Below the pieces are notes generated by a model. The model was not told where the DNA came from. It saw only the letters and a list, made by a program, of their open reading frames with translations, and searched no databases. A program made the position numbers and the translations under genes. Shown piece by piece: positions 5,427-21,369 of a stretch of 24,426 nucleotides of DNA. Position 1 is the first letter of the stretch; every line of letters begins with the position of its first letter. The DNA is from a virus. The stretch lies in IMG/VR virus record IMGVR_UViG_3300048694_000820, positions 1 through 24,426 of that record. One strand, given 5' to 3'.

Positions 5427-5540
5427 TCATTTTTTAGAATTATTTTGTGTATTATAGGACACCTTGGGTTTTCTGTAAAGACCAGGCCAGGTGTCCCGAA
5501 TAATCTCAGCAACTTTATAAGGAGTTGTTGATGTAATCAT
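5427..5540 (-). CDS. 37-aa ORF between gnd and glutaredoxin
   Basis: A short ORF, MITSTTPYKVAEIIRDTWPG followed by LYRKPKVSYNTQNNSKK. Its ATG overlaps the gnd stop as ATGA, the same coupling as for neighbouring real genes, and it fills the gap before glutaredoxin. Amino-acid composition is ordinary (soluble, basic C-terminus). There is no known motif. I think it is real because of the coupling and the lack of other content in the gap, but conservation is untested. Confidence 0.55.
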   Translation of the reverse strand: MITSTTPYKVAEIIRDTWPGLYRKPKVSYNTQNNSKK

Positions 5541-6559
5541 CGAACGTGATGTCCTCCAAACATATAACGCATACCGTTTAGAATCTTGGCTGCGAAAGTA
5601 CCCAGATTGCGACTATTAAATCTTTCATAAAGCGCAGTGGTGATGACAGGAGCGGGAACCCCCAAATCCACAGCAGCATTAACCGTCCACCTACCTTCAC
5701 CACTGTCGGATACTCCTCCAGAGAAGTTAGAAAGCTGTGGGCTGCGGCGCAACACATCAGCAGTAAGATCAAGTAACCAACTACCAACAACGCTACCACG
5801 ACGCCATAACTCAGCAACCTCAGCAACGTCAATATCATAGCAGTAGGATTCTGGGTCTGCCATAGGGGCAACCTCTGCGTCTCCTTCTCTGACATATTTG
5901 GCACCTGCGTTTGCATTCTTGATGATGTTGAATCCTTCTGCATATGCTTGCATAATACCATACTCAATACCATTATGCACCATCTTTACAAAATGTCCTG
6001 CACCAGGACCACCACAGTGCAACCAACCGTGCTCAGCAGAGGTTATAGATGAGTCAAACTCAGTCCTCGGGGCAGCATCGACTCCTGGAGAGAGGGCATT
6101 AAAAATGCGCGAGCAAGTGGCGACTGCAGTATCTCCACCACCAACCATAAGACAGTATCCACGATCCAGACCATAAACACCACCACTAGTGCCACAATCA
6201 ATATATTGGATGCCCATCTTTGCCAGACGTTCTGCTCTTTTCCGACTGTCTTTAAAATTGCTATTGCCATGATCAATAATAATATCTCCTTCACCACAAT
6301 ATCGTAGTAGCTCATTGATAGTTTCCTCCACTGTTTCAGCAGGAACTACCATCTGGAAAATTCCTGGTTGATCTTTTTGTTTGACTATTTTAACTAAATT
6401 TTCAATTGTAGTTGCAACTCCATTCACATATCCTTTTTCATATGCTTCAGTTGCCTTTTCATAATTTCTCCTATAACCCCAAACCTCAATACCTGCTTTC
6501 ATCATACGACGAGACATTCCCTCTCCCATTCTTCCCAGTCCAATCATTCCTACTCTCAT
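5537..6559 (-). CDS. gnd: 6-phosphogluconate dehydrogenase, decarboxylating (short type)
   Basis: A 340-aa enzyme converting 6-phosphogluconate to ribulose 5-phosphate, CO2 and NAD(P)H. The N-terminal Rossmann motif is GLGRMG (residues 7-12). Substrate and catalytic motifs are HGNSNFKDS (97-105), DCGTSGGVYG (121-130) and GHFVKMVHNGIEYG (188-201), with K192 as catalytic lysine and N196 and E199 nearby. The length fits the short YqeC/GntZ-like type rather than the 470-aa form. An SD of AGGAGAAAG precedes the ATG. It lies 10 bp after zwf and forms with zwf and talC a complete oxidative pentose phosphate cassette. Confidence 0.95.
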   Translation of the reverse strand: MRVGMIGLGRMGEGMSRRMMKAGIEVWGYRRNYEKATEAYEKGYVNGVATTIENLVKIVKQKDQPGIFQMVVPAETVEETINELLRYCGEGDIIIDHGNSNFKDSRKRAERLAKMGIQYIDCGTSGGVYGLDRGYCLMVGGGDTAVATCSRIFNALSPGVDAAPRTEFDSSITSAEHGWLHCGGPGAGHFVKMVHNGIEYGIMQAYAEGFNIIKNANAGAKYVREGDAEVAPMADPESYCYDIDVAEVAELWRRGSVVGSWLLDLTADVLRRSPQLSNFSGGVSDSGEGRWTVNAAVDLGVPAPVITTALYERFNSRNLGTFAAKILNGMRYMFGGHHVR

Positions 6560-6569
6560 CTTCTTTCTC

Positions 6570-7901
6570 CTATTTTAGTTTTAGTGGATAATCCCACTTT
6601 GTAATAAGTTCTGTTTTAGTTAAAGGACCCCAAACTCCTCCATTATAAAGATATGGCATCGTCATAATACGACACGAATCTCCAGTACATAGAAGATCAT
6701 CGACAATTCTCCAAGATTCTAACACTTCATCTGCATGAACAAAGTGAGATTGGTCCTCATTAATAGCATCATAAAAAAGTTTTACATAACCATCAATTGC
6801 TTTCTCTACAGGATAATGATACTGAAGAAGTGCTGGTTCTACCATATCATTGAGTCCAGGAGATTTAATATCAATCCTCATATCTAGATGTGGATCTGGT
6901 TGTAATCTCATCACTATTCTATCATTACATTCGTGCCCATCAAAGAGTTGTTGTGGAGGTGCTTTAAATTTAATCACAACTTCCACACAACCAACTGGCA
7001 TTTTCTTACCAGTCATAAAGTAAAAGGGAACACCTTTCCACCTCCAATTATCAACATACAATTCACCAGCAACAAAAGTTGGTGTTTGCGAATCTGGTTT
7101 TACACCTTCTTCACTCTTGTATCCATCATACTGACCAAGAACTACATTATCACCCAGTCTGGTTGCTGCAAGAACCTTAACCTTTTCCCTACGAATCTCT
7201 TTCGCATCATTCCTACAAGGAGGTTCCATAGCAATCAGGGCAAGCACCTGAAGCATATGGTTCTGGAGCATATCCCTTACAGCACCAGCAGTATCATAAT
7301 ACTGAGCACGACCTTCACAACCGATTGTTTCAGTTGCAAAGATTTGAACTTCCTCTATGAAATTTCGATTCCATAGTGGTTCCAAAAGTATATTGCTAAA
7401 ACGAGTGGCAAGAATGTTATTAACAGTATCTTTGCCGAGATAATGGTCAATGCGATATACTTGTTTCTCCCGTAAATATCCAGCCACCACAGATTGTAGA
7501 TAATTAGCAGATTGAAGATCGGTGCCAAAAGGTTTCTCAATAATGACTCTGGATTTTTCTGCGTCATCTAACTTACCTGCTTCTTTTAGGTTTGTAATAG
7601 CATCAGCATATCTTTCTGGTGGGACAGAAAGAAAATAAGTTGTATCTTCATAATCATTCAGCAACTTAAGAGATTCAGCATCACTTAAATCACAGGAGAC
7701 ATATTCAAGTCTCTTAATGAACTCTTGAGAATAACTACCAAGAACTTCTACCCAACTTTCTTTAGAATGTTGAGTTCTGGATGCACCAATAATCTTCAGT
7801 CCTTTTGGTAGAAGATTTTTCTTATGAAGAGTATAAAGTGCTGGAATTAGTTTCTTCTTACAAAGATCTCCAGTTGCTCCAAATATAACTAGTGCTTTCA
7901 T
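6570..7901 (-). CDS. zwf: Glucose-6-phosphate 1-dehydrogenase
   Basis: A 443-aa G6PDH, which oxidises glucose 6-phosphate to 6-phosphogluconolactone and makes NADPH. The dinucleotide-binding motif is GATGDL (8-13), the EKPFG segment is at 122-126, and the substrate and active-site signature RIDHYLGK is at 150-157. It is slightly shorter than host enzymes (about 480-510). The ATG overlaps the talC stop as ATGA. I saw no opcA activator gene or cp12 in this window. The placement between talC and gnd indicates one transcript supplying NADPH and pentoses for nucleotide synthesis. Confidence 0.95.
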   Translation of the reverse strand: MKALVIFGATGDLCKKKLIPALYTLHKKNLLPKGLKIIGASRTQHSKESWVEVLGSYSQEFIKRLEYVSCDLSDAESLKLLNDYEDTTYFLSVPPERYADAITNLKEAGKLDDAEKSRVIIEKPFGTDLQSANYLQSVVAGYLREKQVYRIDHYLGKDTVNNILATRFSNILLEPLWNRNFIEEVQIFATETIGCEGRAQYYDTAGAVRDMLQNHMLQVLALIAMEPPCRNDAKEIRREKVKVLAATRLGDNVVLGQYDGYKSEEGVKPDSQTPTFVAGELYVDNWRWKGVPFYFMTGKKMPVGCVEVVIKFKAPPQQLFDGHECNDRIVMRLQPDPHLDMRIDIKSPGLNDMVEPALLQYHYPVEKAIDGYVKLFYDAINEDQSHFVHADEVLESWRIVDDLLCTGDSCRIMTMPYLYNGGVWGPLTKTELITKWDYPLKLK

Positions 7902-8563
7902 TTTTCACCTTTACTCTTAATAACTTCCTCCCAATCTTTCTGGAATAGTTCAAGACCCTTTTCGGTCATAATGTTTTTGTACATCGACCAGAATACAACT
8001 GGTGGAATTGTAACAACATCAGCACCAGCAAGAGCAGATTGTTCTACCTGTCTTACATCACGAAGAGATGCAGCAAGAATCTGAGTACTAGTACCAGAGT
8101 AATCAAATGCTCTACGGATGTTTTTGATGAGTTCAATACCATCAATAGAGTTGTCCATCCATCTTCCTACGAATGGTGAGATATAAGTTGCTCCTGCCTT
8201 TGATGCAAGAATTGCTTGTGCTACCGAGAATACAAGAGTTACATTCGTTTTAATTCCTTTGTCAGAAAGAAACTTACAAGCCTTCAGTCCTTCTACAGTG
8301 CAAGGAACTTTAATTGTAACTGCTGGTGCGATTGTGTAATACTTTTCTGCCTGGGAAAGCATTTCATCGTGTTCATCAGCAACAACTTCTGCGGAGATGC
8401 TTTCCAACTTTGAAAATGCTTGTGAAATATTTTCAATAACTTCCTTTAACTGTCTTCCACTTTTGAGAATGAGAGTTGGGTTCGTAGTGACTCCATCCAA
8501 CAGTCCAGTATCATATGCTGGACCAATCATAGCAACATCTGCTGTGTCTAAAAAGATCTTCAT
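7898..8563 (-). CDS. talC: Transaldolase, TalC/FSA type
   Basis: A 221-aa transaldolase of the short TalC/fructose-6-phosphate-aldolase-like subfamily typical of cyanophages; the host enzyme is the longer TalB type. It has MKIFLDTAD at the N-terminus, DGVTTNPTL at 23-31, and TIKVPCT with the Schiff-base lysine K85. It moves carbon between the Calvin and pentose phosphate cycles. An AGGAG lies 13 nt before the ATG, which is unusually far. It is the first gene of the talC-zwf-gnd block, preceded by two tiny membrane peptides. No terminator separates it from those. Confidence 0.95.
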   Translation of the reverse strand: MKIFLDTADVAMIGPAYDTGLLDGVTTNPTLILKSGRQLKEVIENISQAFSKLESISAEVVADEHDEMLSQAEKYYTIAPAVTIKVPCTVEGLKACKFLSDKGIKTNVTLVFSVAQAILASKAGATYISPFVGRWMDNSIDGIELIKNIRRAFDYSGTSTQILAASLRDVRQVEQSALAGADVVTIPPVVFWSMYKNIMTEKGLELFQKDWEEVIKSKGEK

Positions 8564-8637
8564 AAAAGAAAAAGAACTCCTAAGTAATTATACTGAGTCC
8601 TTTTTCCATGTCATCCAAATGTTATGGAACGAACATA

Positions 8638-8706
8638 TTATTCTATCATAGACATCACGAACATAAAAATTCCAAAGAGAATAAGAACTGTGAGGATGAA
8701 AAACAT
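8638..8706 (-). CDS. 22-aa hydrophobic micro-protein
   Basis: The ORF is MFFILTVLILFGIFMFVMS then MIE. It is essentially one transmembrane helix. It begins 4 nt after the stop of the 39-aa membrane peptide and has only a weak SD (CTAAG). Size and hydrophobicity recall low-molecular-weight photosystem or cytochrome subunits or small phage membrane effectors, but I see no specific match. It could be a chance ORF; the back-to-back arrangement with another one-helix peptide makes it worth keeping. Confidence 0.45.
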   Translation of the reverse strand: MFFILTVLILFGIFMFVMSMIE

Positions 8707-8710
8707 ATGC

Positions 8711-8830
8711 TTAGAAGTACATCATACTGAGAGTGAATACTACAAACACAATAATGGTAAATCCCATTATTCCTACACCTGCCCAAACTACCCAGGGCTC
8801 CATAGGTTCGTGTTGAGGATTATGAGACAT
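8711..8830 (-). CDS. 39-aa single-helix membrane peptide
   Basis: A short protein with a hydrophilic His/Pro/Glu N-terminus (MSHNPQHEPMEPW) and one transmembrane helix (residues about 14-38, VVWAGVGIMGFTIIVFVVF...). The ATG lies 11 nt inside the end of the HNH gene, a typical tight overlap. The architecture resembles small photosynthetic-complex subunits, and the neighbours are psbA (upstream of the HNH gene) and talC. No subunit can be named from sequence alone. Confidence 0.6.
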   Translation of the reverse strand: MSHNPQHEPMEPWVVWAGVGIMGFTIIVFVVFTLSMMYF

Positions 8831-9346: not shown

Positions 9347-10423
9347 TCAACCAATTGCAGGAGCAGTAAGAGCAACAGGAGTGTTCTCTACGGAAGCAAG
9401 GTCCAGAGGGAAGTTGTGGGCGTTTCTCTCATGAGCCACCTCAAACCCCAAATTAGCACGATTAAGAATATCAGCCCAGGTATTAATTACCAGACCCTGA
9501 CTATCAAGCAGCGACTGGTTAAAATTAAATCCGTTGAGATTAAAAGCCATCGTGGAAACACCAAGAGCAGCAAACCAGATACCAACTACAGGCCAGCTAG
9601 CAAGGAAGAAGTGCAGCGAACGGGAGTTATTGAACGAAGCATATTGGAAGATCAGACGACCAAAGTAACCGTGTGCAGCAACAATGTTGTAAGTCTCTTC
9701 TTCTTGACCAAACTTATAACCATAGTTCTGAGAAATATCTTCAGTCGTTTCACGAATAAGGGAAGAAGTCACCAGAGAACCGTGCATAGCACTGAACAGA
9801 GAACCACCGAAGACACCAGCAACTCCAAGCATGTGGAAGGGGTGCATCAGGATGTTATGTTCTGCCTGGAACACAAGCATATAGTTGAACGTACCAGAGA
9901 TACCCAGAGGCATACCATCAGAGAATGAACCCTGACCAAAAGGATAAACCAGGAATACAGCAGTAGCAGCAGCAACAGGAGCACTGTAAGCAACGAAGAT
10001 CCAAGGACGCATACCAAGACGATAAGAGAGTTCCCACTCACGACCCATATAAGAGAAGACACCAATAAGGAAGTGGAAGACTACCAGTTGGTAAGGACCA
10101 CCATTATAGAGCCATTCATCAAGAGAAGCAGCTTCCCAGATGGGATAAAAGTGCAGTCCAATAGCATTGGACGAAGGGACTACAGCACCAGAAATGATGT
10201 TGTTTCCGTACATAAGAGAACCAGCAACGGGTTCACGAATCCCATCAATATCGACAGGAGGAGCAGCAATAAATGCCACGATGAAGCACATTGTTGCAGC
10301 AAGCAACGTTGGAATCATCAAAGTACCAAACCACCCCACATAAAGACGATTATTAGTGGAAGTGACCCATTCGCAAAACTGTTCCCAAGTATTTGATTGT
10401 TGTTGTGAAAGTGTAGCAGTCAT
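9347..10423 (-). CDS. psbA: Photosystem II D1 protein, intronless
   Basis: A 358-aa D1 reaction-centre protein with all key ligands (canonical numbering is one higher): Y160 (YZ), D169, E188, H197, H214, H271, H331, E332 and D341. The C-terminal processing site is after A343 (HNFPLDLA). Position 129 (canonical 130) is Glu, which is typical of the high-light D1:2 form. The protein has five membrane helices. The phage copy replaces turning-over host D1 so that photosynthesis continues. The gene has its own sigma70-type plus late promoter (10594-10627), a structured leader without a clear SD, and its own terminator. No intron interrupts it. A long plus-strand ORF opposite it is a shadow. Confidence 0.99.
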
Positions 10424-10593
10424 TTTTGTTAAGAGAGTTAGATAAGAGTTCGGGGGGACGAACGATTATTGTTATGTTCCACAGCACCCTCCACTGTGGA
10501 TATGAGAGACGTAATTTATACACCCTATAGGTCTCGGTTAATGGGTGTTTAACAATGTTACAAATCCATTAAGGTTCGTAACATTTGTTTACC
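10424..10593 (-). promoter_or_regulatory. psbA 5' leader with three hairpins and no Shine-Dalgarno
   Basis: The transcribed leader of roughly 165 nt can form ATGTTAC...GTAACAT, CCACAG-TGGAGGGTG-CTGTGG and GTTCG-TCCCCC-CGAAC. The ATG is preceded by CTCTTAACAAAA, with no purine-rich SD. Conserved RNA motifs (PhotoRC-I and -II) are known ahead of photosystem genes in marine cyanobacteria and phages; whether this is one cannot be decided without a covariance search. Confidence 0.5.
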
Positions 10594-10627
10594 TATTTAT
10601 TGTACTATGATCTCTCGTGCTTGTCAA
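10594..10627 (-). promoter_or_regulatory. Composite early (sigma70) and late promoter of psbA
   Basis: Minus strand TTGACA (10627-10622), a spacer of exactly 17, then TACAAT (10604-10599). The -10 overlaps the late octamer AATAAATA (10601-10594). This is a near-consensus host-type promoter merged with the phage late motif. Confidence 0.85.
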
Positions 10628-10640
10628 CAAATTAAAAAAA

Positions 10641-10973
10641 TTATACAGATTCACTTGAATTGACTAAAACCATTCCATCAATCACTTTAGTTTTTTTGCC
10701 AGAAGAAGATGTGACGATTATATCATAATAATATCTTCCCGACTTTAAATCAGTCGTTACAGTGTTTGCAAGAGATACTACAACTTGTCCTGCGGTAGAT
10801 ACGATTCCTACAGAAAAAGGAGTATATGATGTTGATTCAGAAAATTTACGAATCTTTGCTGTTCCAGTATATCCAGTAAGATCTAAAGGACTTCCGTCCG
10901 AATTATTAATAGTAAAAACTTCTTGATAATCAGTTCCTTGCTCTATGACAATATTTACTGCAACAACTGCCAT
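10641..10973 (-). CDS. Probable virion structural protein, beta-rich
   Basis: A 110-aa protein of a type common in cyanomyoviruses: it opens with IEQGTDYQEVFTINNSDGSPL, followed by DLTGYTGTAKIRK, Ser/Thr-rich beta strands, LKSGRYYYDIIV, and a final strand GMVLVN. This pattern (a roughly 100-residue all-beta domain with DLTGYT) is seen in phage tail and baseplate-associated proteins. It has its own late promoter 24 bp upstream (10997-11004), fitting a late structural gene. The exact virion position is unknown. Confidence 0.6.
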   Translation of the reverse strand: MAVVAVNIVIEQGTDYQEVFTINNSDGSPLDLTGYTGTAKIRKFSESTSYTPFSVGIVSTAGQVVVSLANTVTTDLKSGRYYYDIIVTSSSGKKTKVIDGMVLVNSSESV

Positions 10974-10996
10974 TTCTACGATATAATACTTTTACC

Positions 10997-11004
10997 TATT
11001 TATT
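10997..11004 (-). promoter_or_regulatory. Late promoter AATAAATA of the 110-aa gene
   Basis: It lies 24 bp upstream of the ATG at 10973. The following GGTAAA resembles the sequence after the psbA late motif (AATAAATAGGTAAA in both). Confidence 0.6.
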
Positions 11005-11015
11005 ATAAACAACAT

Positions 11016-11023
11016 CCTAAATA
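11016..11023 (+). promoter_or_regulatory. Plus-strand late promoter CCTAAATA
   Basis: CCTAAATA lies 26 bp before the ATG of the first plus-strand gene and is divergent from the late promoter at 10997-11004. It is the only candidate I see for driving the four-gene plus-strand cassette. Confidence 0.5.
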
Positions 11024-11049
11024 AGAATAGTGTCTATCACATAAGAAAA

Positions 11050-11511
11050 ATGAAAAGACTTATTTTAGTTTTTTCGTTATTCTTCGCTATCCCAGTTAAT
11101 GCTGCTGAAATTACATCAAGAATTACTGATTCTGTTCAATTAGGTGTACAAGGTGCAGCGGTACAATCAACAAGAATTGGAGCATCATATTCTGCTTCAG
11201 GTACAAATATCCAATCAACTTCATTTGGTGGTGTAGGTGGTGCTGGAACTTATGATATCAATAATGCAGGTCAAGCATTTCAGTTCTCAGAAACTTACGT
11301 TCAAGCTGATACACCTGTCACCACTCAATCGGTCTCTGGTGGAGCTATTACTTCTCCCAACCTTTATGGGGATTCTGTTACTCAGTTAGCAGGAGATGCT
11401 GGTTCTCTTGCAGGAACACTATCACCGACAGGTGTTCCTACTGTCACTGCTGGTGGTCCTGGAACCACGGCAACTGGTCAACGTAGTGTAGAACTGAGCG
11501 TATTCAAATGA
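11050..11511 (+). CDS. Secreted Gly/Ser/Thr-rich protein with FQFSETY motif (paralogue A)
   Basis: A 153-aa protein with a classical signal peptide (MKRLILVFSLFFAIPVNA, cleavage near residue 18). The mature part is rich in Gly, Ser, Thr and Ala. It contains SYSASGTNIQST (46-57), a glycine-rich turn, and GQAFQFSETY (74-83). The downstream gene has the same GTNI...FQFSETY pattern, so the two are paralogues. The C-terminus ends VELSVFK, compared with TSISVFTQ in the paralogue. The composition suggests a beta-structured surface or fibre-like protein exported by the Sec system. The gene is the first of a plus-strand cassette and overlaps the next by ATGA. The function is unknown. Confidence 0.75.
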   Translation: MKRLILVFSLFFAIPVNAAEITSRITDSVQLGVQGAAVQSTRIGASYSASGTNIQSTSFGGVGGAGTYDINNAGQAFQFSETYVQADTPVTTQSVSGGAITSPNLYGDSVTQLAGDAGSLAGTLSPTGVPTVTAGGPGTTATGQRSVELSVFK

Positions 11512-11867
11512 GACATATCCTAGCAGGTTTATTCCTGCTAGGGTTTTCTTGTCCTGCCCTAGCAGAAAGTGTTGTGCCCAATTTTACCAGGGGTACAATT
11601 AATGCGACTACAGAATCTACTACGAAAGTAATAGAAACAATTCGTCAAGTTGAATACACAACTGGCGAATCTTATACTGTGACTGGAACTAATATTAATA
11701 TTCCTAGTGCTCCTCAAAAGGGTGCTAGTTATTCTATTATAGAACAAGGTGCCCCATTCCAGTTTAGTGAGACCTATCTCGGACCTGGAGTGGCAAAAGA
11801 AACATGGATAGATCGTACTACAGAAACTCAATCAAGCACTACATCAATCTCTGTCTTTACGCAATAA
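11508..11867 (+). CDS. Secreted protein with FQFSETY motif (paralogue B)
   Basis: A 119-aa protein with a signal peptide (MRHILAGLFLLGFSCPALA, cleavage after residue 19). The mature protein is Thr-rich and carries SYTVTGTNINIP (55-66) and GAPFQFSETY (81-90), matching paralogue A with similar spacing. It lacks the Gly-rich extension found after the motif in A. The ATG overlaps gene A's stop as ATGA. The last 64 nt overlap the next gene's signal peptide region in another frame. The function is unknown; co-expression with A and secretion of both suggest a joint extracytoplasmic assembly. Confidence 0.75.
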   Translation: MRHILAGLFLLGFSCPALAESVVPNFTRGTINATTESTTKVIETIRQVEYTTGESYTVTGTNINIPSAPQKGASYSIIEQGAPFQFSETYLGPGVAKETWIDRTTETQSSTTSISVFTQ

Positions 11868-12388
11868 TCTCAACTGGCACTGCATTTGCACAAAGCGCAC
11901 CAGCACCAAGCAATACAAACATCGCAGGACCTTCAGCATCTGCTACTGGTAATGTAACTAACCAGGCAGTTCAGGTGCTTCAGGGACCTTATGCACTCAA
12001 TACTTATGGTAATGGAGTTAGTTGTCAGGGAGCAACGTTTTCAATATCTCCTTTTTTAATGAACAGTGGAAATAAAAGTGAAGACCCAGAAAGTTTTGCA
12101 ACACATAATGGAAACTGGGGTATTTCTGCTGGTCTTAATATTCCGTTAGACGGAAATCTAATGGATTTATGTAGAAAAAGAGCAGCAGTTGAAATTGCCA
12201 GACAACAAGCAGAAACAGACAAAGCAAGATTAGATTTTGAATTAGTTAGATTATTGAAGTGTGGGGAAGCATATAAGAATGGAATAATGTTTCATCCAGA
12301 AAGTCCTTACTATAAAATTTGTGCTGATATTGTTGTGAAATATCCAAAGGTTGAGGATGTAGTTAATGGATCTAATCGCACCAATTGA
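11804..12388 (+). CDS. Secreted protein with C-terminal helical domain
   Basis: A 194-aa protein. The start at 11804 gives a signal peptide with a polar n-region (MDRSYYRNSIKHY) and a hydrophobic core ending in TAFA, cleaved before QSAP at residue 30. The mature part begins Pro/Ser/Ala-rich, then has a segment with one Cys and VLQGPYALNTYGNG, then a helical region with K/R/E/A bias (CRKRAAVEIARQQAETDKAR) and a final portion with two more Cys. The 64-nt overlap with the previous gene is long, but no later ATG keeps the signal peptide. The function is unknown. Confidence 0.7.
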   Translation: MDRSYYRNSIKHYINLCLYAIISTGTAFAQSAPAPSNTNIAGPSASATGNVTNQAVQVLQGPYALNTYGNGVSCQGATFSISPFLMNSGNKSEDPESFATHNGNWGISAGLNIPLDGNLMDLCRKRAAVEIARQQAETDKARLDFELVRLLKCGEAYKNGIMFHPESPYYKICADIVVKYPKVEDVVNGSNRTN

Positions 12389-13247
12389 TAATTCAAATTT
12401 AAACACTATAATCGGAAATAAACCGATTAATGTTCCAAATCCAAGTAATAACAGAATTTCTGGTCCTTCTGTAATTTCCACAATAGAAAGACCAACACTT
12501 CGTGATGTTGAAGCACCAGTAGTTCGTGGATTAGAAGTTCCAATTATTGATGTACCAAATACATCAATCAATTACCCGGTTATTAATGTACCAACTCAAG
12601 CAGAGTTTGATGCTGCGGTAAAAGCAGAAAAACAGAAACAACAGCAAGAAGAAAAACCAAAAGAAAGAGCATTACCATCAAATCCTGCTCCACCTCCTGC
12701 TATACCACAAATTCCACAAATCTCACACATTCAAACACCTGTTGCAGAAATACCAGCAGATAAACCAAACACTACCCCAACATTTACTCTCGGTGGAATC
12801 AATATTAATTTACCTGATCCTTCTGTTGTTGCTACGGCGGGTGCTGTCGCAGTAGTTACCACTGCTGCTACCGTAGCGTCAACTGCAGTATTTAATGCTT
12901 TAAGAAATGCTGCGGAACCATTAATCAAAGAGGCAGCAAAAAATAAGTTTAAAATTAAAATTAAACACGTTAAACCAGTGCTGCATTATGTTTTAGCAGA
13001 TAGTGGTCATATTGATATTTTTGAATATTCTTCTGAAGGTACAAGACTTGTAGCACAGACTGATAATGTAGAACAATATATTCGTGATGAGATTGAAAAA
13101 AATACTTTATATGAAATTGAAAATAAAGTGATTATTGATGATGTAATTAAAAATAAGTTCACAAAAGAAGGGCAAGAAAGATTTAAATCTCTATATGCCC
13201 CTCCTAAAAAGATTGCTAAAAAATTATCTGCTCGTCTTTCTTTTTGA
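12366..13247 (+). CDS. Proline-rich protein with one membrane segment and repeated N/D-V-P motifs
   Basis: A 293-aa protein. Residues about 1-75 contain repeated short IxVP-like units (INVPNP, IIDVPNT, VINVPTQ, and later INLPDP at about 150). A Gln/Lys/Glu stretch and a Pro-rich linker (PSNPAPPPAIPQIPQI) follow. An Ala/Val/Thr-rich hydrophobic helix (GAVAVVTTAATVASTAVF, about 158-175) precedes a charged C-terminal domain. There is no signal peptide at the N-terminus, so the hydrophobic helix may be an anchor. It overlaps the previous gene by 23 nt and ends in a 24-nt convergent overlap with the nuclease gene. The function is unknown. Confidence 0.7.
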   Translation: MDLIAPIDNSNLNTIIGNKPINVPNPSNNRISGPSVISTIERPTLRDVEAPVVRGLEVPIIDVPNTSINYPVINVPTQAEFDAAVKAEKQKQQQEEKPKERALPSNPAPPPAIPQIPQISHIQTPVAEIPADKPNTTPTFTLGGININLPDPSVVATAGAVAVVTTAATVASTAVFNALRNAAEPLIKEAAKNKFKIKIKHVKPVLHYVLADSGHIDIFEYSSEGTRLVAQTDNVEQYIRDEIEKNTLYEIENKVIIDDVIKNKFTKEGQERFKSLYAPPKKIAKKLSARLSF

Positions 13248-13643
13248 ATCTAATTCCGCAAAGTTTTTAACTTTAGTTCCACCATCATAATTCCAGGCAT
13301 AACCCTCAACAATCATTTGATTATTAAGAGAAGTTGTTTCTCCATTGATAAACAAATGACCAATGATGCGACCATACTTTTCTGTAGAGTCTGGAAGTTC
13401 AGTCTTGATAAGAATATCTTTTGCACCTTCACAACGGTGCTTTAACCATTCTTTTGCTTCAAGTCCGTACTTCTTTTCATTCGCATCTGCGGTTCTTGAT
13501 TCTGGTGTGTCTACACCAGCAAGACGAATGCGTTTAGTAAGAGAAATATCAAACCCCAAATCTATTGAGGCATCTACGGTGTCCCCATCAACTACTTTAT
13601 AAATTTCTTTGATTCTATAAATGTATGGGTCTCTGTCTGCCAT
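13224..13643 (-). CDS. Thermonuclease (SNase) family nuclease
   Basis: A 139-aa staphylococcal-nuclease-like protein. The catalytic set is complete: D21 (VDGDT), R40 (RIRLAGVDTPES), D45, E48 and R92 (KYGRIIG), matching D21, R35, D40, E43 and R87 of SNase. There is no signal peptide, so it likely acts in the cytoplasm or virion on DNA or RNA. A late-type octamer lies 26 bp upstream (13669-13676). The start overlaps the 70-aa gene's stop as TAATG. The 3' end runs convergently into the plus-strand gene. Confidence 0.92.
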   Translation of the reverse strand: MADRDPYIYRIKEIYKVVDGDTVDASIDLGFDISLTKRIRLAGVDTPESRTADANEKKYGLEAKEWLKHRCEGAKDILIKTELPDSTEKYGRIIGHLFINGETTSLNNQMIVEGYAWNYDGGTKVKNFAELDSKRKTSR

Positions 13644-13855
13644 TAGAAAGGTAATCTAAACTTCTCAGTATTTATCTTTGAAATAGGTAAACTTTGAATT
13701 GCTTTAGAAACTTGTTTTTCAACAACAACACCAACAAATTCCTCAGGATTGTCAAGAATCTTTTGTGCCTTTTGATATGTCATATAAGCACCAACACCGA
13801 TTGCAGCACTAATGCTTAGACTCAGAAGTGATAGGATTAGACTCAGTTGTTTCAT
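13643..13855 (-). CDS. Small membrane protein, 70 aa
   Basis: An N-terminal hydrophobic helix (LSLILSLLSLSISAAIGVGAY, residues about 4-24) is followed by a soluble amphipathic tail (QKAQKILDNPEEFVGVVVE...). The start overlaps the end of the 50-aa membrane ORF by 47 nt in another frame. It lies between a secreted metalloprotease-like gene and the nuclease. The function is unknown; it could be a membrane-anchored partner in lysis or entry. Confidence 0.65.
   Translation of the reverse strand: MKQLSLILSLLSLSISAAIGVGAYMTYQKAQKILDNPEEFVGVVVEKQVSKAIQSLPISKINTEKFRLPF
13669..13676 (-). promoter_or_regulatory. Late-promoter-like GATAAATA before the nuclease gene
   Basis: Minus-strand GATAAATA lies inside the 70-aa coding sequence, 26 bp from the nuclease ATG at 13643. 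The spacing equals that of other late promoters here. Confidence 0.4.
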
Positions 13856-13961
13856 CTTTCATCTCCTCATTTGCTAACTTTAATATGTAGTAAATGATAT
13901 ATGCAGTAAAGATAAAACCACAAGATAATATTATTACCACACCCCAAGGAAACTCATTCAT
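13809..13961 (-). CDS. 50-aa single-pass membrane protein
   Basis: The ORF starts MNEFPWGVVIILSCGF, with one transmembrane helix (about 6-27) and a hydrophilic acidic tail (NEEMKDETTESNPITSESKH). The ATG overlaps the stop of the metalloprotease-like gene as TGATG, and an AATGAGGAG inside it is the SD of the following 70-aa gene. The overlapping pair of two small membrane proteins in different frames is reminiscent of nested lysis genes (spanin-like pairs). No lipobox is visible, however, so that remains a guess. Confidence 0.6.
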   Translation of the reverse strand: MNEFPWGVVIILSCGFIFTAYIIYYILKLANEEMKDETTESNPITSESKH

Positions 13962-14707
13962 CAGTACTTACCTTCAACGCAATATTGTGCTTTTTTATTT
14001 GGATAATAAGGATATAAACCTTCTTGAGGTTTCATATAACCACATCCAATTAACCATTCCATCGTTTGTGGAGTTGGTCTTATCTGATCCCAAAGAGGTC
14101 CATTCGCACACATCTCTAATTTTTCGGCAGTTACATTAGACTGTTCCTCTGCCCAGTTTGCATCTGCTTCCCAAGGAACTGCACGACTTTGCATCATAGA
14201 TTCATAAGTTAGTTTTGTCATCTTCATTACCCAGGCAGGAATCTCACTATCCTGATGAACCTGTGCCATAAAAGAAGTTTTTAATCCACCACCCATACAA
14301 TCCTGAACGGTATGCCATCCTTCGTGGCGAAGAGTTCCTAAAAACTCTCTAGGGTCCGACACAAGTTCTTCATTAATAAAGAAACGATTATAGTTTGGTT
14401 TGTATAAACCTACTGTTCTTGGTGTAAAATATCTACTTGGAGCAAGATACACACCAATTTCTAATTTATCAAGTGCTTTAATAATTCTTTTAATCTCATC
14501 ACGGAAACGATCAAAGTTTGGGTCTTCAAAAACTTTTGATTCTGGTGAGAGTTTTTCTGTTCCATCTGTACATTCTAAAAGAATCATACAACCCATTGCT
14601 TCTGCACTATAAGGTCTTACTGTGGGTTGATTACTTAAAAGTTTATCTGCTCGAACTGGAAGAGCAAAACTTAACGTTATTCCGATTGCTGCAATGAATT
14701 TTTTCAT
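13961..14707 (-). CDS. Secreted putative zinc metallopeptidase (HEGWH)
   Basis: A 248-aa protein with a signal peptide (MKKFIAAIGITLSFALPVRA, cleaved near residue 20). It contains LRHEGWHTVQD with an HExxH zinc motif at residues 128-132. E180 in VPWEADANWAEE could be the third ligand 48 residues later, as in gluzincins. Several Cys (40, 46, 137 and others) suggest disulphides in the periplasm. The gene is coupled by ATGA to the 66-aa gene and lies in the same direction as the lysozyme. It might cleave host envelope protein or peptidoglycan cross-links. Activity is inferred from the motif only. Confidence 0.75.
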   Translation of the reverse strand: MKKFIAAIGITLSFALPVRADKLLSNQPTVRPYSAEAMGCMILLECTDGTEKLSPESKVFEDPNFDRFRDEIKRIIKALDKLEIGVYLAPSRYFTPRTVGLYKPNYNRFFINEELVSDPREFLGTLRHEGWHTVQDCMGGGLKTSFMAQVHQDSEIPAWVMKMTKLTYESMMQSRAVPWEADANWAEEQSNVTAEKLEMCANGPLWDQIRPTPQTMEWLIGCGYMKPQEGLYPYYPNKKAQYCVEGKY

Positions 14708-14910: not shown

Positions 14911-15033
14911 TCACTTTTTCTTACCACCATTCTTTGCTTTTTTAGCATTAGCATTTCCAGAATTTTGCTTTTTATTATTAGCAGATCCAGCACCACCAGA
15001 TCCCTTTTTACCTTTGTTAGCAGACTTTGACAT
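14911..15033 (-). CDS. 40-aa Lys/Gly/Asn micro-protein
   Basis: The ORF is MSKSANKGKKGSGGAGSANN followed by KKQNSGNANAKKAKNGGKKK. It is extremely basic, low-complexity and without hydrophobic residues. A good SD (GAGGAG) lies 7 nt upstream, and the ATG overlaps the stop of the membrane protein gene as TGATG. The composition resembles a disordered nucleic-acid- or envelope-binding peptide. It is likely real because of the SD and the junction. The function is unknown. Confidence 0.65.
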   Translation of the reverse strand: MSKSANKGKKGSGGAGSANNKKQNSGNANAKKAKNGGKKK

Positions 15034-15437
15034 CAGAGATCTCCTCTTGAATAGGGTTTTTCTTCATCAACTTTCGCTTCTAAAGCTTCAACTCTTTCTT
15101 CAAGAGAAGATTCTTCTTTATAAGCAGTTTGAACTAGTGGTTCTTCATTTACTTCTTTCACAACCACTTTCTCTACTGCAGCAGATGCCTCTGCAGCAAC
15201 TGACTCAGTGTCAGATGTTGGAGGTGTTTCTACAAACTCCTCCGTTTTTGCTTCAGACTTTTTTTCATCATCATCATCTCCACCTTTCTTCATAGTATTA
15301 ATTCCAAACGTAGCAGCAGATGCGGTGAACACTGTTGCTATAAATGTCGGGTCCATCTTAGCAAGAAGACCCGCATAACTTGCCGTGAGAAGTGCGGCAG
15401 ACCAACTCAAAATCGCAACACGAATAAAAGTACTCAT
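15033..15437 (-). CDS. Holin-like two-helix membrane protein with acidic coiled tail
   Basis: A 134-aa protein with two hydrophobic helices near the N-terminus (about IRVAILSWSAALLTASYAGL and TFIATVFTASAATFGI) separated by a KMDP turn, then a highly acidic domain and a helical end (SLEERVEALEAKV). The position right after the lysozyme and the two-helix layout fit a class II holin, though the long tail is unusual. An ATG at 15467 would add ten residues but has no SD; 15437 has AAGAGAAAAG upstream. Holin function is inferred from topology and context. Confidence 0.6.
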   Translation of the reverse strand: MSTFIRVAILSWSAALLTASYAGLLAKMDPTFIATVFTASAATFGINTMKKGGDDDDEKKSEAKTEEFVETPPTSDTESVAAEASAAVEKVVVKEVNEEPLVQTAYKEESSLEERVEALEAKVDEEKPYSRGDL

Positions 15438-15485
15438 ATACTTTTCTCTTTTATTTGGCGTGTTCATTTTAGAGAACGTGAGAGG

Positions 15486-16181
15486 TTAACCTTTTTTCCA
15501 AGCTTCACCTTCAGACTTTCTTCTACGAGCAAGTCCTGCTTCTACACTTGAACCAGGATTTCTGTAAAGATACAATGCATCGGGAACTAAATCCCATTCT
15601 TTATCTTTCAAGCGTTTAGTAATAGTATTAAAGTCATTACTACCGTAAAAACCGGCACCAAGATTATAAGCAAAGCTGAGCAAAGCTCCCCTCTTTCCAT
15701 CTGACATTTCTCCCCAATGTGGAATTTTACGAAGTGAAGGTAAGAAGTGCTTTTTGCATTCATCAATCAGAAGTTCATCTGCTTCTGCTTGAGTAATTTT
15801 ATCTCCCATATGGAATGGAGATCCATCTTTTTTACGGGTGCAACCCCAACCAATAGTAATTGGTAAGTTTCCACTGAGAGGATCTGGATATGCATCCAGT
15901 CTACAACCTTCAAATTCTTTGATTAATTTGATACCCATCATTGGAACATCATCACCACCAGCTGGTGCTGGTGAAGAAGACGCTGCAGGAGCAGGAGCAG
16001 AATCTGATGTAGATGCTGCTGCAGCATTAGACTTTTTTCCACGATAGATTTCTGCCCAATCTACATTATCCTCAAGAAATTTATTTGGTAGATGATCTTC
16101 TAACCACTGAACTGCTTTAACATGATTAGGGTTTTTTTCATCATAAAATTTAAAAAAGTTATGTAGATCAATTCTTGCCAT
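15486..16181 (-). CDS. GH24 lysozyme (endolysin) with an extra N-terminal module
   Basis: A 231-aa protein. Residues 81-231 form a T4-lysozyme-like GH24 muramidase with FEGCRLDAYPD and ITIGWGCT; E91, D100 and T109 correspond to the catalytic triad E11, D20 and T26 of T4 lysozyme. Residues 1-48 are a module (DLHNFFKFYDEKNPNHVKAV...QWLEDHLP) that also starts the C39-like peptidase encoded upstream. A linker of Ala/Ser/Pro/Gly (51-80) separates the two. There is no signal peptide, so a holin or virion delivery is needed. The SD is CGGAGG. The protein cleaves the host peptidoglycan. Confidence 0.92.
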   Translation of the reverse strand: MARIDLHNFFKFYDEKNPNHVKAVQWLEDHLPNKFLEDNVDWAEIYRGKKSNAAAASTSDSAPAPAASSSPAPAGGDDVPMMGIKLIKEFEGCRLDAYPDPLSGNLPITIGWGCTRKKDGSPFHMGDKITQAEADELLIDECKKHFLPSLRKIPHWGEMSDGKRGALLSFAYNLGAGFYGSNDFNTITKRLKDKEWDLVPDALYLYRNPGSSVEAGLARRRKSEGEAWKKG

Positions 16182-16279: not shown

Positions 16280-16951
16280 TTAATCGAAGATCCTTCCCCA
16301 TCCATCATTGCCTCCTGGACACCAACGTGCCTTAAGCATTGCTTTGGTATAAATTGTCTTCTTACCGTTGGTAACAGGTCCAGTATAGTTATCATTACAA
16401 GATCCATATGGATCATTGCAGTAATAACCTTTACCATCTGGTGTTCTACCAATCACTACAACCATGTGCCCACCAGTAGGATTAGATAAAGAACCACGAT
16501 GCAATATGCCAATAACGACAGGCTTCCCAGCATCAAGGCTCTTATCAATATCAGAGAAAGAAAGATTGTAACTAAAGTGTGACTTAACACCATAAGCAGC
16601 AAGAACTTTTGTCTGTACTGCGTGATCAGTTGTATCACCAATCTCAAATACTTTCTTAACGTATTCGTCGTCTCCTTTAATAGATCCTGGTTTAAGGAAT
16701 GCAAGACACATTGCACATGACGAACTGTTACAAGTTCTATGTGCATCTCTGTAGTTATCTACCTGATTAAAGTATGGAACTGCAAGAACTTCTGGAGTGG
16801 GTGGTTTTGTTCTAAAAATTGAAACCCACTCCGTCTCCGAATCATCCATGAATTGGGCAGGAAGATTATCTTCTAACCATTGAACTGCTGCTACATGATT
16901 AGAATTACTATCATCATAATACTTAAAAAAGTTATGAAGGTCTAAGGTCAT
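16280..16951 (-). CDS. C39-like cysteine peptidase with the same N-terminal module as the lysozyme
   Basis: A 223-aa protein. Residues 1-47 match the lysozyme N-terminus (DLHNFFKYYDDSNSNHVAAV, then QWLEDNLP). The rest resembles the papain-fold C39/C39_2 family: C74 (TCNSSSCAMCLAFL) as nucleophile, GGHMVVVIG with H162, and NDPYG with D180. Such domains cut peptides or act on peptidoglycan and glycine-type leader sites. It has its own late promoter 24 bp upstream. With lysozyme and the holin-like gene it forms a lysis or virion-wall-entry group. The substrate is unknown. Confidence 0.8.
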   Translation of the reverse strand: MTLDLHNFFKYYDDSNSNHVAAVQWLEDNLPAQFMDDSETEWVSIFRTKPPTPEVLAVPYFNQVDNYRDAHRTCNSSSCAMCLAFLKPGSIKGDDEYVKKVFEIGDTTDHAVQTKVLAAYGVKSHFSYNLSFSDIDKSLDAGKPVVIGILHRGSLSNPTGGHMVVVIGRTPDGKGYYCNDPYGSCNDNYTGPVTNGKKTIYTKAMLKARWCPGGNDGWGRIFD

Positions 16952-19777: not shown

Positions 19778-21298
19778 TCAGAACTTAAAGGTCGTCTGAA
19801 CCAGAGCACCGAAAGTATCAAGTCCACCTTGACCAGTAGGATTGCTCAGATAGAACACCGAAGGAGTAACTGCAATATTATCAGTTACTTGCATCTTGTA
19901 ATATGCTTCAAGAGCATAGTTACCATCATCACCATTCTTGCCGTTTTGTTCAGTTACAAAGGTAGGTTCGCCAACTGCAAATCCAAGAGCATTACCCTTA
20001 GCAATCACATCATTCCAAACCAGACCAGTGTACCAGGACTGGGAAACAGTAGCATCACCCTTGTTATAGGAAGAACTATTGTAACCCCAACCAGCAGAGA
20101 TAGAAGGAACCCAACCAGATTTGGAGGGTTGCCAATAACCAGCAAGAGAGAATGCGTTGGTGTTACCACCAGTTACTGCATTAGGAAGAGCAGAAGTCAG
20201 AGTAGGAGTACCAGAAATGCTTACACCGTTATTCGAATAAGTATAAGCACCAGTCACGTTCCAGTTCTTACCAGTGTAGGCAAGTTGAGCAGTTCCAGAG
20301 GCAGCAGAGTTGCCGTTGAACATACCACCCTCGGCACTATTACCGACATCAGCATCACCAGCAACATAAGCACCACCAAGGGTCCAACCACCTTTCTTAA
20401 CAGAAGCACCGAAACCACCACCAAGAACTTTAGTATATGTTCCAGGAGCACCAGCAAACTGGAAGATGTTCAGGATCTTATCTGCAGTATAAACGGAAGG
20501 CCACACAGGCAGAATGTCATCCTGACGGATACGAGGACCAGCAGCAATCGTTACATCCTTACCAACAGGGAACTTGTAGTAAAGACGTTGAATGGCAACA
20601 ACATCACCACCATCAGCACCACCAAGATTTTCTTGGAAACCAGCATCAAGTTTAGTGAGTTTGGTAGGTTCTGCACCAAAACCAGCATCATCAAAGTTGC
20701 CAGCACGAAGTTGAGTACGAAGCAGATCCTTACCAGTGAAAGAAGTATCCAGATTCAGTTTCACATCATAGTTGAAGGAAACTGCCTCACGAAGATTGTT
20801 GTAATCATTCTTACGATTACCACCATAAGAAAGACCACCAAGCACCCAACGGGTTTCACCACGCAGTTTAGTGGTGGTAGAGAACTGAGTTGCTTCAAGT
20901 TCTCCAACTTGTGCCTCCAGTTTATCTACACGACCACGAAGAACAGCAAGTTCAGAAGTAAATTCTGCTTGAAGACGCTTGATCTCATCGGTAACTTCAC
21001 TTACACGATCCAGGCAAGCATTCAGAAGTGCTGCTGCTTCAAATCGTGTCATTGCTTTTCCACCACCATAGGTGCCATTGGGATAACCAGCAACGCAACC
21101 ATAACGTTCTACAAGGTTGCTGAGTGCTTGATATGCCCAATCCGTGGGTTGAACATCAGACAGTTGTGAGACACTTGTAACTTGTTCTGAAGTGGAATAT
21201 TGGTTGACTGCTGCAATATTAAGATCTGCCGCACTTGCAGCAACAGGAGCAACCATTCCCAGAGCAACAGGTGCAAGCATCAGTTGTTTGAGTTTCAT
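19778..21298 (-). CDS. Cyanobacterial-type outer-membrane porin (SLH + OprB-like barrel)
   Basis: A 506-aa protein. It has a signal peptide (MKLKQLMLAPVALGMVAPVA, cleavage after ASA at 23), an SLH domain at about 47-100 (VQPTDWAYQALSNLVERYGC, GYPNGTYGG, TRFEAAALLN), a coiled coil (about 100-138), then a beta-barrel with alternating aromatic/Gly strands and terminal Phe (TTFKF). This is the Som/iron-uptake-porin architecture of cyanobacteria. In Prochlorococcus MED4 a phosphate-induced porin gene (phoE) lies next to pstS, so phosphate permeation is likely here. The start at 21298 was chosen because the upstream ATG is within the leader. It has its own composite promoter and terminator. Confidence 0.93.
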   Translation of the reverse strand: MKLKQLMLAPVALGMVAPVAASAADLNIAAVNQYSTSEQVTSVSQLSDVQPTDWAYQALSNLVERYGCVAGYPNGTYGGGKAMTRFEAAALLNACLDRVSEVTDEIKRLQAEFTSELAVLRGRVDKLEAQVGELEATQFSTTTKLRGETRWVLGGLSYGGNRKNDYNNLREAVSFNYDVKLNLDTSFTGKDLLRTQLRAGNFDDAGFGAEPTKLTKLDAGFQENLGGADGGDVVAIQRLYYKFPVGKDVTIAAGPRIRQDDILPVWPSVYTADKILNIFQFAGAPGTYTKVLGGGFGASVKKGGWTLGGAYVAGDADVGNSAEGGMFNGNSAASGTAQLAYTGKNWNVTGAYTYSNNGVSISGTPTLTSALPNAVTGGNTNAFSLAGYWQPSKSGWVPSISAGWGYNSSSYNKGDATVSQSWYTGLVWNDVIAKGNALGFAVGEPTFVTEQNGKNGDDGNYALEAYYKMQVTDNIAVTPSVFYLSNPTGQGGLDTFGALVQTTFKF

Positions 21299-21369
21299 AA
21301 AAATTTGTTTTTGTTCTATAGGACATAATGAGTAGTGGTGCAAATAGTTGCGGCACCTCCACTTCACGG

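Follow-up and report, generated by a model that had tools for sequence, protein, structure and literature searches.

A four-gene cassette of predicted envelope proteins in cyanophages and its possible role in host lysis

The four-gene cassette and its products

The window analyzed here, a 24.4-kb virus record (IMG/VR IMGVR_UViG_3300048694_000820; 24,426 nucleotides), is a fragment of a T4-like cyanophage (Kyanoviridae) whose nearest relatives are the Dishui Lake phages DSL-LC02 and DSL-LC03. Four genes at positions 11050 to 13247, termed g1 to g4, are the only plus-strand genes among the evident genes of the window, and the rest are on the minus strand. The first, g1 (11050–11511, +), encodes a beta-rich, predicted exported protein of 153 aa that belongs to phrog_564 and T4-GC237, is named "OMP1" in S-RSM2 and occurs in myoviruses only. 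It is followed by g2 (11508–11867, +; 119 aa; phrog_650, DUF6322, T4-GC236), which also encodes a predicted exported protein, and by g3 (11804–12388, +; 194 aa; phrog_848/1755, T4-GC235), which starts inside g2 and encodes a cysteine-containing protein predicted to be exported. The last gene, g4 (12366–13247, +; phrog_570/9426 family, T4-GC234), encodes a protein of 293 aa with a proline-rich acidic N-terminal part, one transmembrane (TM) segment and a basic C-terminal tail, and at its stop codon it runs into the 3′ end of a minus-strand SNase gene.

The sequence-only reading of this DNA had described four overlapping genes running against all others. This was confirmed by the open reading frames and their strands, with overlaps of 4 nt (g1/g2), 64 nt (g2/g3) and 23 nt (g3/g4), and by the intact order g1-g2-g3-g4 in 169 related loci. 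The 4-nt overlap is kept in 195 of 201 loci and the 64-nt overlap in 222 of 227, and g2/g3 overlaps are present in P-SSP7 and S-TIP37 too. Codon position 3 accounts for 59% (g1), 67% (g2), 63% (g3) and 51% (g4) of the differences from same-length relatives. Given the conserved order and overlaps and this codon position bias, g1 to g4 are real genes. Within the 64-nt overlap, changes occur at a site that is third in the codon in g2 and first in g3, which indicates that the g2 frame is more constrained and makes the exact start of g3 less certain. The region from 10400 to 13700 also holds nine terminator-like hairpins (2.0 ± 1.7 in shuffled sequences), for example at 11517–11544, 11704–11728 and 12142–12165; one hairpin with 11 pairs lies directly past the g2 start.

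A T4-type late promoter box, CTAAATA, is found at 11017–11023 on the plus strand, 33 nt before the g1 ATG. The motif TAAATA is present upstream of g1 in 113 of 115 freshwater and 56 of 62 marine loci, mostly 28 to 36 nt ahead of the ATG, compared to a background of 4 to 6% in random stretches. As a sequence signal, the box argues for late expression of the cassette.

Clear Sec-type signal peptides are predicted for g1 (MKRLILVFSLFFAIPVNA/A) and g2 (MRHILAGLFLLGFSCPALA/E); that of g3 is weaker, has a long n-region and is encoded within the g2 overlap. Thus, the earlier assignment of Sec signals to three proteins, and of a membrane segment and proline-rich part to the fourth, was borne out, with the weaker signal of g3 to be noted. 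A crude Sec rule is passed by all of g1 to g3 and, in cyanophage S-SZBM1, by 2 of the 112 open reading frames that reach 100 aa; it is a rough filter that also lets through a few other frames of the window as well as some plain membrane segments. These predictions support export of g1 to g3 to the host envelope. No lipobox-like motif was found near the N-terminus in 22 g1, 19 g2, 70 g3 and 89 g4 representatives.

The profiles of g1 and g2 each retrieve the other, the two proteins can be aligned around a common core, "(S/T)GTN(I)...FQFSET", and by these comparisons they are paralogues. Structure prediction, proposed in the sequence-only reading, succeeded in part. The AlphaFold2 model of g2 (single chain, pLDDT 80) shows a hairpin whose two strands, 24 to 25 residues long, are Ser/Thr-rich, polar and only weakly amphipathic, whereas that of g3 (single chain, pLDDT 58) is poor. 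The best structural neighbors of the g2 model are mostly barrel-forming pore hairpins, together with phage tail/collar channels and flagellar rings, at Z of 4.4 or less, TM scores of about 0.2 and no significant E-value; any long hairpin could reach such Z scores, and they are not evidence of relationship. Barrel formation by g2 is therefore a hint from a model and not a result. The g3 protein contains between four and six cysteines as well as a conserved stretch that favors a helix, and is predicted to consist of strands followed by a 42-residue helix. Foldseek with the g3 model gave no useful match, and profile searches of PDB sequences gave nothing for g3 and only noise at E of 0.5 for g1 and g2. 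Overall, Pfam, PDB profile and structure searches returned no fold or sequence match of the cassette to a protein of known function.

The g4 protein has no signal peptide and no canonical signal anchor. It carries 19 to 31 prolines (about 25) ahead of its one membrane segment, located near residue 155, which is followed by the basic tail. In almost all representatives the net charge is negative before the membrane segment and positive after it, and cysteines, where present, lie almost only N-terminal of the segment. By the positive-inside rule, this charge pattern and the cysteine placement suggest an N-out/C-in topology.

Distribution, gene layouts and neighboring genes

Searches with tblastn recovered 462 phage records for g3, 381 for g2 and 266 for g1, all of them cyanophages or marine virus records. 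By pairwise search g4 seems rare; profiles join Syn9 gp164, P-SSM2_239 (phrog_570, T4-GC234) and P-SSP7 gp42 (phrog_9426) to its family. In cyanomyoviruses, g1-g2-g3 form a fixed block in hundreds of records. Most freshwater loci carry g1-g2-g3-g4 on one strand, with a minority in which g4 is inverted, and marine myoviruses carry g1-g2-g3 followed in most loci by an inverted g4. T7-like cyanophages, which lack g1, have the order g4, DUF6450, g2-g3, placed between the tail-fiber genes and the small terminase gene, the position of the holin gene in T7 itself. The same proteins thus remain neighbors in several layouts and in two phage families. The sequence-only reading had regarded an operon devoted to secretion as rare in tailed phages, which is true of phages overall, cyanophages being the exception.

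The constant partner of the cassette is a DUF6450 gene (phrog_721/21865; 15033–15467, −, in the window), which encodes a small, apparently two-TM, holin-like protein of the family of P-SSP7 gp43. Its open frames are 88 to 174 aa long and, read by eye, contain two hydrophobic stretches, with little sequence between them, and a charged tail, from which a holin role may be inferred. Among 17 whole genomes, 11 carry g2, g3 and DUF6450 together, and the other six (S-SZBM1, S-PM2, P60, Syn5, PSS2 and S-CREM1) carry none of the three. Together with the fixed block, this supports the joint inheritance across cyanophages that was checked following the earlier proposal. DUF6450 sits between g4 and g2 in all 67 podovirus loci, and lies at a median of 0.9 kb from g2-g4 in marine and 1.9 kb in freshwater myoviruses.

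In the window, a phage lysozyme (endolysin) gene (15486–16181, −; PF00959, 3.3e-21; PHROG endolysin families) lies 19 nt upstream of the DUF6450 gene. In 85 of 117 freshwater loci that hold both genes, the window included, DUF6450 follows the lysozyme gene by no more than 25 nt; the two do not adjoin in the tested marine genomes. A phage lysozyme gene occurs 1.0 to 2.4 kb after g3 in 15 podovirus loci (4 of the 15 checked against Pfam). Syn9, P-SSP7 and most of the other marine module carriers tested have no Pfam lysozyme, so the link to an endolysin comes chiefly from the freshwater clade and from some podoviruses. A C39-like peptidase gene (16280–16951, −; PF13529, 6.4e-15; phrog_10051 endolysin, 1.3e-76) encodes a probable second cell-wall enzyme.

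Several other genes of envelope character are found nearby. A small single-TM protein (13643–13855, −) weakly matches phrog_568, a neighbor of the module in marine cyanophages (Syn9 gp162, 8505–8768 of the Syn9 locus); the "plasmid stability" label of this family, widespread in cyanophages, looks wrong for a small single-TM protein beside the module. A frequent neighbor is an exported metallopeptidase-like protein of phrog_591 (13961–14707, −), whose membership in the module is uncertain; HEGWH (HExxH motif) is present in 154 of 161 relatives, which makes it a candidate exported metallopeptidase. In marine phages, the gene between g4 and DUF6450 (phrog_605) encodes another envelope protein, represented by Syn9 gp163 (7867–8502 of the Syn9 locus), with an N-terminal TM segment, a periplasmic domain and, at the C-terminus, a hydrophobic stretch that resembles a glycine zipper and has Cys as its last residue. 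The window also encodes, at 19778–21367 (−), an outer-membrane porin with an SLH domain (PF00395, 1.8e-8) and an OprB barrel (PF04966, 7.3e-20), like cyanobacterial SomA, and DSL-LC03 has an "autotransporter beta-barrel" gene near its cassette. By sequence look, 5537–8563 (−) and 9347–10423 (−) hold host-like 6-phosphogluconate dehydrogenase, glucose-6-phosphate dehydrogenase, transaldolase and psbA genes.

An origin of the cassette as host-derived auxiliary genes was considered and rejected. A g3 profile scan of bacterial and archaeal genomes gave 14 loci, mostly on short MAG contigs, in Prochlorococcus/Synechococcus single-cell genomes, or on 188- to 189-kb contigs of cyanophage size, and no host version was seen among them, with contig identity judged by size and source. 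The g3 homologues in genomes labeled Nonlabens xiamenensis (188-kb contig), Flavobacteriia, Euryarchaeota, Chloroflexota and others are on contigs that look like cyanophage contamination or mis-binning.

The cassette families are themselves T4-GC 234–237 of Sullivan et al. 2010 (phrog_570, 848, 650 and 564), where they are catalogued only as hypothetical; all four are likewise annotated "hypothetical" in S-SM1. Literature searches found no paper on DUF6450, DUF6322 or the PHROG numbers, none connecting the T4-GC 234–237 families with one another, with DUF6450 or with lysis, none on cyanophage spanins naming the cassette genes, and no expression or mutant data for them.

A possible outer-membrane arm of a lysis module

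The holin-like partner and the nearby lysozyme, both missed by the sequence-only reading, point to lysis. This reading draws on the late promoter box, the predicted export to the envelope, the constant holin-like partner, the fact that two lineages have an endolysin nearby, and, in T7-like phages, the location behind the tail-fiber genes. We give an even chance to the cassette serving as the arm of a cyanophage lysis module that acts on the outer membrane, in which unrelated proteins would play a spanin-like role.

The proposed sequence of events is as follows. The T4-type late promoter of the cassette would turn on g1 to g4 late in infection. Sec would export g1, g2 and g3 to the periplasm or outer membrane, while g4 would reside in the inner membrane and expose its proline-rich part to the periplasm. 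DUF6450 would then open the inner membrane and the endolysin would cut the peptidoglycan, after which a complex of g2 and g3, joined in myoviruses by g1 and tethered to g4, would disrupt the outer membrane and so stand in for the spanins absent from cassette phages. Both the action of such a complex on the outer membrane and its mode are only inferred here. The means of disruption could possibly be the assembly of the long g1/g2 beta-hairpins into a barrel. In the fullest version, which we hold to be doubtful, a g1/g2 hairpin barrel in the outer membrane would be coupled to the holin by g3 and the membrane-anchored g4, and lysis would proceed via a trans-envelope pore instead of spanin-driven membrane fusion. 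If this were true, it would be a further route to outer-membrane breach, common to T4-like and T7-like phages.

The absence of spanins from cyanophages has been described. Kongari et al. found none in 20 Prochlorococcus and Synechococcus phages surveyed and listed Syn9, P-SSM2, P-HM1, P-SSM4, Syn33, S-RSM4 and P-SSP7 among the spanin-less cyanophages; they described a possible spanin substitute consisting of an N-out/C-in inner-membrane protein and an OMP (PMC6139136). Of the listed phages, Syn9, P-SSM2, P-HM1, P-SSM4 and P-SSP7, among others, are carriers of the module. The predicted features of g4 and of g1 to g3 fit this description. The Rz-type Pfam family (PF03245) gave no match in 17 cyanophage genomes, with a positive E. 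coli control. Neither the module nor a known spanin is present in S-PM2, P60, Syn5 and PSS2, and the module therefore cannot explain all cyanophage lysis. The module and other spanins did not show a pattern of excluding each other, since phages without the cassette lack recognized spanins too.

Compared to two-component spanins such as lambda Rz/Rz1 and T4 PseT.2/PseT.3, the cassette exhibits several similar features: small envelope proteins with presumed late expression, an overlapping gene pair, inner-membrane and exported partners, a proline-rich stretch, and location near holin-like and endolysin genes. However, the cassette has no lipoprotein, g4 has no type II (N-in) signal anchor, three proteins instead of one are exported, and there is no sequence relation to Rz. 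The lack of a lipobox in g1 to g3 and of a canonical signal anchor in g4 makes the anatomy unlike that of a spanin, and a canonical spanin was rejected after lipobox, type II anchor and Rz homology had each been tested and found missing. Furthermore, N-out insertion of 130 to 190 residues without a signal peptide would be unusual, which counts against the lysis reading.

Alternative roles and significance

The proteins could instead build a trans-envelope structure for a purpose other than lysis, such as a pore, adhesin or surface layer serving superinfection exclusion, uptake or cell aggregation. The predicted export, the probable multimeric state and the additional envelope genes nearby, including the OprB porin of the window, are consistent with such a structure, and there is a precedent in the csgF/csgG modules exchanged between pelagiphage families, for which a non-lytic envelope use of phage-borne curli pores was proposed (PMC9599517). 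For the curli pore module of methylophage Melnitz, a role in lysis was proposed (PMC9004378). The cassette resembles these modules as an exported pore-type module common to phages of different families, but it has no CsgF, CsgG or CsgA/B homology by Pfam and has a holin-like partner instead. Homology to curli/T8SS was rejected at the sequence level, since a Pfam scan at E up to 1 gave no Csg family for g1 to g4. The likeness to oligomeric pores built from beta-barrel hairpins and to the tail channels of phages, a hairpin of two very long strands, applies to g2 only and at the hairpin level only. The late promoter box, the constant holin-like partner, the frequent endolysin neighbor and the lack of a Pfam match to curli proteins speak against a non-lytic structure, which we consider an improbable reading. 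Superinfection exclusion, raised in the sequence-only reading, fits poorly with the T4-type late promoter box and with near-core conservation among cyanomyoviruses. Of the other two roles suggested there, surface modification may still apply and virion decoration gained no support; all three are weaker explanations than lysis.

Control of lysis timing, with g1 to g3 as periplasmic, antiholin-like regulators of DUF6450 (compare RI in T4) and g4 as their membrane anchor, would account for the strict co-inheritance with DUF6450 and the interleaved gene order in podoviruses, and all the proteins would act late. But three or four regulators are many for one small holin, and DUF6450 offers little sequence between its hydrophobic stretches, so that this role appears more unlikely still. 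A role as virion or virion-assembly components crossing the envelope, for example as decoration proteins, is very unlikely: the late promoter box, the podovirus genes directly after the tail-fiber genes and the weak fold resemblance of g2 to phage collar/tail channels would suit it, but three of the proteins have predicted Sec signal peptides, and the S-TIM5 record calls nearby genes "virion structural" and the cassette genes hypothetical. The tabulated virion proteome matched to a genome is that of S-SZBM1, a phage that lacks the cassette.

A large fraction of the picocyanobacteria of oceans and lakes is killed by cyanophages. The present analysis names a five-protein candidate for the breaking of the outer membrane in many of these phages, comprising g1 to g4 and DUF6450 and common to two phage families. 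The genes could be deleted in S-TIP37 and Syn9, phages that grow on laboratory strains. If the lysis reading is true, it would provide a function for several abundant gene families now labeled "unknown."
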